Source of the DNA: Protonemura montana
Lineage: Eukaryota; Arthropoda; Insecta; Plecoptera; Nemouridae
Direction of reading: 5' to 3'
DNA length: 64,000 nucleotides
NCBI GenBank assembly: GCA_947568835.1
Contig: OX387604.1
Location: forward strand, 6,231,860 to 6,295,859
The position numbers and the translations under genes are program-made. Of the stretch, positions 21,901 through 23,110 are shown one piece after another (position 1 is the first letter of the stretch; the number at the start of each line of letters is the position of its first letter). Under the pieces are notes generated by a model. The model saw only the letters and a program-made list of their open reading frames with translations, was not told the origin of the DNA and did no database searches.

Positions 21901-22424
21901 TGAAAAGTTAGTTTCTTATGTCTAGGTGTTCAAATATTTAAGACGATCAGCTGAGACTAAGAATTCTAGCTTGGGATTCTAGTTTTCATATCGAAACCTT
22001 TATGTTATTTATACCTGTTTATTTTGGCAAGGAGTTTGTACGGAACGACCTAAAGAGCGTCGAGTCGTATCCTTGAATACTTTTCCCTACTGTTATCTAA
22101 CAAATCACAAGAGTAATATTGCTAGTAATAAAGTTCAGGAATGTTAAAACATAAAAATGTTCATTTTATGGTTTGCATTATAATGTAATTTGAGTGCAGT
22201 AATTTGACACACCAGTCTAATTGATTGATGAGGAAAACAGTTTCTTATGAGCATACTTTTGCAGGCATTCTCAAGCATTCTTAGAACTATCACTCAAGTT
22301 TCTAAGCTTACTGTGGTATAAGTTTCCAAATAAATGTGTCAAACAATGGGAGACCCAAATAAATCAGTATTGCATACCTGTTCTAATTATACGTTCTAAT
22401 GTGAATTGAGGTAATAAGAACTAT
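18926..22424. other. long stretch without a recognisable gene
   Basis: Unique, A+T-rich DNA. Small frames exist on both strands (for example 20041-20247 minus and 20919-21107 plus) but none carries a domain I know. A GGGAGCA-type run at 19140-19172 and GACCGGGACCGGGACC at about 20393-20410 are short degenerate repeats. No RNA genes were seen. Confidence 0.5.
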
Positions 22425-22471
22425 GTGTTGTTGGTATTGTTGTTATTGTTGTTATTGTTGTTGTTGTTGTG
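22425..22471. repeat. (GTT)n with ATT interruptions
   Basis: About 15 GTT/ATT triplets, ending in a pure (GTT)5 block at 22456-22470. It lies 50 bases from the hammerhead ribozyme. On the ribozyme's strand it reads (AAC)n and lies downstream. Confidence 0.95.
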
Positions 22472-22521
22472 GTAAGTAACGGACTTGCTCTGGTGGGATT
22501 GACTTGTGGCCCTAAAAAGGA

Positions 22522-22577
22522 CCTAAAAAGTCGACGTTTCGTCGGCGATGGCGCCGACATCTTCAGGACAGTCTAGA
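22522..22577 (-). ncRNA. minimal type I hammerhead ribozyme, Penelope-like element type
   Basis: A self-cleaving RNA motif read on the minus strand. Core: CTGAAGA (22566-22560), one unpaired U, stem II GTCGGC/GCCGAC (22558-22553 with 22546-22541) capped by a six-base loop, GAAA (22540-22537), then CGTC with predicted cleavage after C at 22533. Stem I pairs 22532-22530 with 22567-22569, leaves a 2x2 internal loop, then pairs 22527-22522 with 22572-22577, including two G-U pairs. Stem III is only the self-complementary ACGU with no loop, so cleavage would need two RNAs to pair. Metazoan Penelope-like retroelements are known to carry exactly such minimal, probably dimeric hammerheads in their flanking repeats. 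No reverse-transcriptase or GIY-YIG frame survives nearby, so this is a solo remnant. Folding is by hand. Confidence 0.82.
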
Positions 22578-22740
22578 ACTTACTAATTGTTATAATTCAA
22601 TATTAAAAAATATTCGATTGCAAATTGCGAACGGGAAATACAAGACGATCGAAAATTTTGTTAAATAAATATCTGGTTGTTGGTAAAAACTTCAATTTAC
22701 CGTCTTTAGACTGAAAATTTGTCCTCAGATTCCGCTTTAA
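22578..22740. other. spacer, possibly Penelope-like flank
   Basis: A+T-rich sequence between the ribozyme and the conserved-box repeat. In a Penelope-like element the sequence around the ribozyme would be the flanking repeat, so part of this may belong to it (inference). No frame survives. Confidence 0.3.
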
Positions 22741-23110
22741 CGTATATTTCAAATGTGAGCCCCTGAATGCAGCCCGCAGAGCAAAACAGCATCTAAAGAA
22801 ATTGCCTCGAATAAATACCGCTAACTATCAGAACTTGACACTGATTTGTCTTTAGCGCACCTTATTAATCATAATATTTTTTTCTAAACATTTCAAGTCA
22901 TTTTAAATCTAAGCCCCTGAACGCAGCCCGCAGAGCAAACTTAGTTTTTTTGGGAAAATGCGAGAAATGGTGTACACAAAATATAAATGCCCCGTGAAAA
23001 CTGGAACTTATAATGGTTTTCATGCATTCAGTTTCGTATGAGCTTTACTTAATATTACCTTCATATATATGTTCAATGCTAGCCCGTGAAAAACAAACTT
23101 GGCACCTCCA
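22741..23110 (-). repeat. conserved-box repeat, cluster 1 (three copies)
   Basis: Three copies of one repeat on the minus strand, with boxes at about 22760-22786, 22914-22941 and 23079-23106, spaced 154 and about 158 bases. The box reads TTTGCTCTGCGG then GCTGCATTCAGGGG. The first two copies match it almost perfectly. The third has lost the middle but keeps CAAACTTGGCACCTC, shared exactly with a copy at 35.5 kb. The DNA between boxes is much more diverged than the boxes. The monomer length resembles a satellite. No frame spans it and I know no family with this box. Confidence 0.8.

Follow-up and report, generated by a model that had tools for sequence, protein, structure and literature searches.

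A minimal hammerhead ribozyme in a solo pseudo-LTR of a Penelope-like element, with a histone-like hairpin beside its predicted cut

How does a well-kept hammerhead ribozyme come to lie in a stretch of DNA from which the rest of a retroelement is missing? The window, i.e., the whole 64,000-nucleotide stretch of Protonemura montana DNA analyzed here, carries a hammerhead core on its minus strand at positions 22533..22566. A preliminary description had assigned this core to the Penelope-like element (PLE) type and had found no PLE coding sequence nearby, and a genome search for the PLE endonuclease likewise returned no match within the window (150 of 219 candidates scored). Here, the feature was identified, with a probability of roughly 0.9, as a solo, tail-less pseudo-LTR insertion of an endonuclease-bearing PLE. 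It belongs to a known kind, the minimal PLE hammerhead, well preserved within a solo pseudo-LTR, and its membership of that kind is ordinary. The part worth following is a hairpin that the clade has conserved beside the predicted cut.

The ribozyme and the arm that carries it

Read on the minus strand, the window sequence is ACTGTC-CTGAAGA-T-GTCGGCG-CCAT-CGCCGAC-GAAA-CGTC-GACTTTTTAGGTCCTTTTTAGGGCCACAAGTCAATCCCACCAGAGCAAGTCCGTTACTTACCACAACA, followed by an (AAC)n microsatellite. The stretch from CTGAAGA to CGTC (22566-22533) is the core that had been described, and it is real. It is made up of CUGAAGA (22566-22560), an extra U between A9 and stem II (22559), stem II with its loop (22558-22541), GAAA (22540-22537), and CGUC (22536-22533), which is the type I arrangement (CUGANGA ... 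GAAA ... UH, with an open stem I). Self-cleavage is predicted between 22533 and 22532. A relaxed descriptor search, proposed at the outset, succeeded: a loose core pattern matched the window once against 0.03 matches expected, and 3 of 100 shuffles reached one match. The exact core with AUG was present at 209 places in the genome (258 Mb), compared with 1 in the reversed control. The proposed check with Rfam hammerhead models failed, giving no match at the gathering score or at E values up to 10 in 22300-22800. These models expect a stem III, which the minimal PLE variants do without. Cervera and De la Pena reportedly described minimal PLE hammerheads of this sort in 2014, with helix III missing or reduced.

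Stem II of the window copy consists of seven Watson-Crick pairs; the pairs had rightly been called perfect, but six had been counted, and the extra U before the stem had gone unmentioned. Stem III is the palindromic 2-bp ACGU, as described. By itself, the ribozyme would be unable to close this stem; it would depend on another RNA, on a further copy within the same transcript, or on the PLE protein. The view that it can act only as a dimer was too strong, since in the available text of PMC11167929 a PLE hammerhead cleaved only when its own protein was added.

Stem I is the weak part of the window copy. Its 5' strand (22567..22570), AGUC in the family, is UGUC here, and its 3' strand is GACU (22529..22532). 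Position 3 is A in 38 of 41 aligned copies and T in the window copy, L020, and L036, so that only three contiguous pairs (GUC/GAC, formed with 22532-22530) are left. The statement that the core and all stems are intact was therefore correct for the core and stem II but not for stem I, in which the fourth pair is broken. The two-part stem I with an internal loop was not upheld. The sequence 5' of ACAGTC differs between short copies, being either the inverted partner or host DNA, and in copies with an element body (for example, L024 and L028) it is an untranslated region (UTR) ending in CCTCGACACAGTC. By eye, the CCU of this UTR end could pair with the AGG of the hairpin described below, so that a second part of three pairs may exist in copies with a body.

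The core is part of a 108-nt arm at 22465..22572 (minus strand), which is 98.1% identical to the arm at locus L010 and ends as other tail-less arms do. The RNA 5' end of this arm would presumably lie at 22572, and the putative reverse-transcription start site CCACAACA is located at 22465-22472. Directly 3' of the arm is an (AAC)n-type microsatellite (22427..22464, minus strand), and the tail is absent. The window copy is thus one arm with no tail and an intact core. The minimum-energy fold of 22480-22590 had a z-score of -3.36, with none of 200 shuffles equally stable; it contained stem II and the hairpin, the latter enclosed by an outer stem, and stem I was absent.

Only 2 of 108 positions differ from the family majority, namely, the A3-to-T change that breaks the fourth stem I pair and an A-to-G change inside the hairpin that gives a U-G pair. 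So few differences suggest that the insertion is fairly young. Short head-to-head insertions of the repeat are common in the genome, so special retention of the ribozyme is not needed as an explanation. Of the two explanations first offered for an intact ribozyme in a dead remnant, the recent insertion thus fits the 2/108 differences, and retention became superfluous, as 28 of 39 loci compared are short pairs. Alternatively, the host could have domesticated the ribozyme and preserved it here for a function of its own, as the intact core might indicate. This reading is very improbable, because all 13 core nucleotides are kept in 32 of 41 aligned copies, which makes intactness the rule, and because stem I of the window copy is weakened. 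The sequence comparison suggests a fairly young, short insertion and not a specially retained ribozyme, and the window copy is probably not transcribed as an element.

The repeat family and its integration signature

The 201 bases surrounding the feature had at least 70 matches in the genome (40 of 438 candidates scored). The full element expected from a search with this flank was recovered in part: copies with an element body were found, but among the copies seen, none linked the AUG in the core to a complete open reading frame (ORF). For the N-terminal peptide, at least 150 genome places were obtained, the window included (150 of 688 candidates scored). Copies were fetched in 10-kb stretches (20 copies) or in stretches of about 1 kb (18 copies). 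The repeat unit that they share is 108 bp long, and at most fetched loci two such arms stand head to head with a few bases between them. Matches of Rfam microRNA models on these inverted arms were taken as foldback artefacts.

The arrangement of the arms was analyzed with a 141-nt query (the L010 arm plus tail) at 39 loci, comprising the window, L009-L045, and L049; L046, a repeat of the L015 insertion, was excluded from the pair count. Arms were present in both orientations at 28 of these loci and not at the other 11, and the 28 are short head-to-head pairs of the repeat alone. Exactly one tail was found in every one of the 28 inverted pairs. In all of them, one arm ended at query position 139-141 and its partner at 91-111 (27 at 106-111), and 26 pairs were flanked by a direct repeat of 5-16 nt, the short ones of which may be due to chance. 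Exactly one tail per inverted pair is the integration signature of PLEs. The family combines pseudo-LTRs that bear a tail and a short target duplication with a hammerhead inside the pseudo-LTR, both of which characterize PLEs. A single PLE insertion was observed three times on C12 with a spacing of 4,978 bp (L015:822-1045, L015:5800-6023, and L046), apparently amplified inside a larger tandem repeat.

A type I hammerhead in a short repeated copy is also what would be expected of a retrozyme, a non-autonomous tandem-repeat element that spreads via small circular RNAs. Metazoan retrozymes (PMC7229834, available text) are likewise short and carry type I hammerheads, but they consist of direct tandem repeats with canonical hammerheads, and the same text separates the canonical retrozyme motifs from minimal PLE variants. 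In the window family, direct tandem repeats of about 170-400 nt with a canonical hammerhead were not seen; the copies are inverted arms with a PLE tail, and the repeat adjoins PLE-like coding sequence. A retrozyme is therefore very improbable.

The PLE assignment of the preliminary description was supported by loci at which the same repeat is joined to a PLE-like endonuclease frame. At L048, a 150-aa open endonuclease-like frame (GVYEVPCGDCAQTYMGQTGR...) is followed by a UTR and an arm that lacks GAAACGTC, so the ribozyme of this copy is broken. At L049, a broken endonuclease-like frame is followed by a UTR and an arm with both core and tail. In addition, at L024, a C-terminal coding piece (...RTIREAIEIERRPHNMNKRDDSIRLPHVWRPV...) leads via a 3' UTR to an arm with its tail. 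The L048 stretch had at least 149 genome matches (150 of 219 candidates scored), with open frames of up to 856 aa. By its motif, we take the frame of L048 and L049 to be the GIY-YIG-type endonuclease (EN) of a PLE. A Pfam search with the frame gave no match, so this name rests on the motif together with the join to the tail, the inverted arms, and the hammerhead. A sister family (L051) is 78% identical in the L048 stretch and has its own hammerhead with other stems; its 487-aa frame presumably comprises the reverse transcriptase plus EN, as the motifs recognized by eye indicate. The eight equal-scoring places of this family each lie within about 1.1 Mb of a contig end.

Two candidates were rejected. 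The genome search with PF01541 gave a single place (L047), and this GIY-YIG match looks like a host gene, presumably of the SLX1 kind by its motif. A 747-aa frame at C12:16591974, considered as a complete PLE, overlaps a 36-bp minisatellite that grew from a PLE arm within an apparent host gene. The 36-bp minisatellite at L093:1-330 is of this kind and amounts to a satellite derived from a pseudo-LTR. At C14:1575023-1653055, seven equal matches to the N-terminus recur at intervals of about 12,987 bp and point to another large tandem repeat carrying a PLE piece. A distant PLE group (L068, L069, and L071), with about 45-46% amino-acid identity, has a different hammerhead, in which an extra A replaces the U, and no histone-like hairpin. 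The core pattern was also found in at least 120 stretches of viral contigs and the hairpin pattern in 2; the PLE endonuclease motif was present in none of these 122 stretches, and six or more stem II pairs, wobbles allowed, were present in 1.

Presumed start codon, proposed copying, and compensation in the stems

A9, the extra U, and G10.1 together form an AUG (22558..22560, minus strand), which is the presumed ORF start. The U was present in all 41 aligned copies, and the peptides are alike in families A, B, and C. Conceptual translation from this AUG gives MSAPSPTKRRLFRSFLGPQ for family A (L010) and MTSRDLSKRREPRPFLGPT for family B. Of four family C copies translated, L067 and L073 are open through the hairpin, while L059 and L076 stop before or in it. 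The presumed ORF would start at CUGAAG-AUG in the ribozyme core, with translation probably beginning at this AUG. The window family has the type I order in common with the minimal PLE hammerheads of PMC6155905, whose helix III, according to the available text, is missing or reduced; it differs from them in the extra U after A9 that makes the AUG. An overlap of ribozyme core and presumed start codon would constrain how PLE RNAs are made, ended, and copied.

As far as the available texts go, PAc of Anolis (PMC11167929) and Pen2a of Adineta vaga (PMC3846280) share with the window family the inverted pseudo-LTRs, short target duplications, a GIY-YIG endonuclease (putative in the window family), and a tail of ~30-40 bp on one pseudo-LTR. 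Both also provide a precedent for an ORF starting inside the pseudo-LTR; PAc has a minimal hammerhead as well, and its ORF starts at hammerhead stem II. The tail is optional in this type of element (PMC3846280 describes it as a feature that one of the inverted repeats may carry), whereas it occurred exactly once in 28 of 28 inverted pairs of the window family. A strict rule of one tail per pair is not stated in the available text of either paper. PMC11167929 describes the tail as the stretch between two reverse-transcription start sites and both target strands as being extended, with the start site the same on either strand (available text).

For the window family, we infer an RNA start, a cleavage, and two-sided copying of the following form. 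The element RNA would start at about ACAGUC, and its first nucleotides would form stem I. The start codon (CUGAAG-AUG) would lie inside the ribozyme core, so placed that 28 nt of the ORF would precede the cut; 3' of the cut, the conserved hairpin and then an AC-rich loop would follow. Reverse transcription would have two start sites, one for each side of the target break; they are CCACAACA and the end of the 33-nt tail, located 96 and 129 nt into the presumed ORF. Copying would run toward the RNA 5' end and would give head-to-head inverted arms with one tail, and loss or truncation of the partner would leave a solo arm like the window copy. The use of each start site once per inverted pair examined would be a constraint on PLE copying.

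The preliminary description had named stem changes without compensation among genome copies as a result that would speak against the ribozyme. Such changes were seen within the subfamily but not between subfamilies. In the 41 aligned arms, there was no within-subfamily covariation of the stems, and the changes were scattered, as in dead copies. Departures from the majority amounted to 8 of 532 cells in the core, 20 of 738 in stem II, and 18 of 656 in the hairpin; the remaining 3' part had 108 of 1959, subfamily marks included.

Between families A, B, and C, the core was identical in the three family majorities (13 of 13 columns), and both sides had changed in two pairs of stem I, four of stem II, and one of the hairpin. 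This comparison was made with 14 copies hand-chosen among the fetched loci, and two of its five measures were not above shuffles. Cells in which both sides had changed numbered 27, compared with 9.3 in shuffles that do not keep relatedness (0 of 500 reached 27), and structures slid along the alignment gave at most 7. The number of both-side-changed pairs (7 versus 5.9, with 166 of 500 shuffles as high) and the number of further pair types (9 versus 11.6, with 496 of 500 as high) were not above shuffles. A second comparison used 57 distinct 34-nt cores, taken from the 100 listed among the 209 genome places, again with shuffles that do not keep relatedness. The six stem II pairs analyzed were paired in 87.7% of cells, compared with 66.7% after shuffling (maximum of 1000 shuffles, 71.9%), and 87 both-side cells were counted, compared with 29.6 in shuffles (largest, 49). 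When stem II was slid by 1 to 3 positions, 24.6 to 51.8% of cells were paired. Judging from these alignments, the stems compensate between subfamilies and merely decay within the subfamily, as neutral decay predicts, so that the core is backed by covariation at the family level in addition to the pattern match.

A histone-like hairpin beside the predicted cut

The hairpin GGUCCUUUUUAGGGCC (22508..22523, minus strand) matched the Rfam Histone3 model with 16.2 bits, below the gathering score of 34; the whole sub-threshold match to the histone 3' hairpin spans 22483-22528 (minus strand). The hairpin is kept in several PLE subfamilies of the genome as GGYCCUUUUUAGGRCC, starting 9 nt after the predicted cut, and in the families inspected it is followed after 15-16 nt by CAGAGC. 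In the window, CAGAGC is located 15 nt 3' of the hairpin (22487..22492, minus strand) and may be either a histone-like hexamer or the 5' strand of the AC-rich loop. The hairpin was identical between family majorities in 14 to 16 of 16 columns, compared with 5 to 10 of 14 in the following spacer; the 0/7 for family B in the CAGAGC row of that comparison is an artefact of a one-column misalignment. A hairpin at this place distinguishes the clade from PAc and Pen2a as described in the available texts, and no PLE hairpin resembling the histone signal was found in the literature covered (open papers, titles, and the starts of abstracts).

With the histone 3'-end signal (RF00032), the PLE hairpin shares a six-pair GGYYCU stem, a U-rich four-base loop, an ACA-like 3' flank, and CAGAGC. 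The loop is UUUU in most PLE copies and UUUA or UUUC in the host histone genes. Unlike that signal, the PLE hairpin is located in a presumed ORF and scores below the gathering score, and the likeness is known from sequence alone. If the likeness were functional, the hairpin and CAGAGC would be a working 3'-end signal bound by SLBP and perhaps by U7, which would end PLE RNAs without poly(A) and tie them to S phase. Both terminal repeats would carry the signal, with the copy close to the promoter being disregarded, as happens with the poly(A) signal in LTR elements.

A genome search with the histone model (E up to 10; 75 of 43,389 candidates scored) gave 61 places, of which 36 lay in the histone cluster, a tandem array at the beginning of C11, 2 were further histone copies, and 23 were others. 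The first repeat of the cluster contains H2B, H2A, H4, and H3 frames. Sixteen of the 23 other places were inspected; 13 were PLE copies, recognized by eye from the tail or hammerhead (two of them belonging to one inverted pair), and 3 were not. At 25 bits or more, 9 of the 10 other places were PLEs. The tenth, a 32.8-bit match at L058 (C1:4719400-4719540), belongs neither to a PLE nor to the histone cluster.

Several of these results speak for mimicry of the histone signal. The best PLE copies score like host hairpins: 7 of 10 PLE loci scanned with RF00032 matched, with 30.8, 30.0, 27.5, 25.7, 25.7, 22.7, and 18.6 bits, compared with 37.1, 33.2, 31.2, and 27.3 bits for the host histone hairpins. 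No PLE reached the gathering score of 34 bits, nor did three of the four host genes in the cluster's first repeat. CAGAGC follows the hairpin of three of the four host genes at a spacing close to that in the PLEs (17 nt in H2B, 17 nt in H2A, and 18 nt in H4), and H3 has GAGAGA at 19 nt. The two-part pattern of hairpin plus CAGAGC occurred at 344 genome sites and at none in the reversed control. A histone hairpin consensus occurred 29 times in 263,820 bases around PLE copies, and in every case CAGAG followed at a distance of exactly 15 nt. The stem of family A is the same as that of host H4, with one loop base differing, and an SLBP gene is present in the genome.

Against this, the PLE copies share descent as one lineage, so their histone likeness counts as a single event, noticed after the fact. 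The window family scores low, and 3 of the 10 PLE loci (L030, L034, and L067) gave no histone-hairpin match at E values up to 1; the distant PLE group is without the hairpin. Moreover, a cut at this signal would cost that repeat both of its reverse-transcription start sites. U7 snRNA was not found in the genome: the Rfam search gave no match over the cut-off (best E value, 3.4), and a guide-plus-Sm pattern matched 30 times, compared with 88 in the reversed control. Six candidates from the U7 search were folded, and none had a convincing 3' hairpin; when one candidate was paired with nine histone or PLE pieces, none of the nine duplexes was better than 95% of 500 shuffles.

The coding sequence offers another source of the likeness. 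Within the presumed ORF, the hairpin encodes R-S/P-FLGP, beside the reverse-transcription start loop. With codons treated as equal, six Watson-Crick pairs are formed by 32 of 6912 codings of RSFLGP and 32 of 4608 of RPFLGP. All of these codings have the histone stem, and 16 of each 32 also have the histone loop. So few codings give six pairs that the pairing itself looks selected. The pairing exceeds what the peptide demands, yet peptide and pairing together yield much of the histone look. CAGAGC, too, has a possible partner: in two of four folds (families A and C, but not B or D, the piece of D having been shortened), it is paired with GCUCUG of the tail. This pairing could close the AC-rich loop in which synthesis starts.

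On balance, we favor the view that the PLE's own protein uses the hairpin, which is close to the AC-rich start loop, as an element for recognition or folding, with the histone likeness arising from peptide and pairing. In the available text of PMC11167929, the RNA required for insertion falls within the ORF's first 172 nt, and the start of synthesis is placed in an AC-rich stem loop at 111-118 nt; no hairpin is described there at this place. In the window family, the 3' strand of stem I has an alternative partner, AGUC (22504-22501), with which it forms the outer stem around the hairpin. Folding for minimum energy produced this outer stem in the window copy as well as in families A, C, and D. 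The outer stem and hammerhead stem I share one strand, which suggests a switch; the hairpin, conserved next to the cut, could determine whether the ribozyme folds or the RNA adopts a different state. This role is predicted from sequence and folds, and the fold of family B, which has neither the outer stem nor the CAGAGC pairing, does not fit it.

A role with the element's own protein or in folding is more likely than histone mimicry, which we consider doubtful. Equally tentative is the idea that the clade carries a three-in-one module, in which a start-codon hammerhead, a histone-mimicking hairpin sharing the stem I strand, and a reverse-transcription start loop are combined. If the histone signal were real, it would be a retroelement route without poly(A), timed to S phase; if the module were real, element RNAs would be made and kept like histone mRNAs, and retrotransposition would be coupled to DNA replication. 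One copy of the hairpin, at L060:254-393 (minus strand), has the loop AAAA within a longer perfect palindrome, as if it had been locally inverted.
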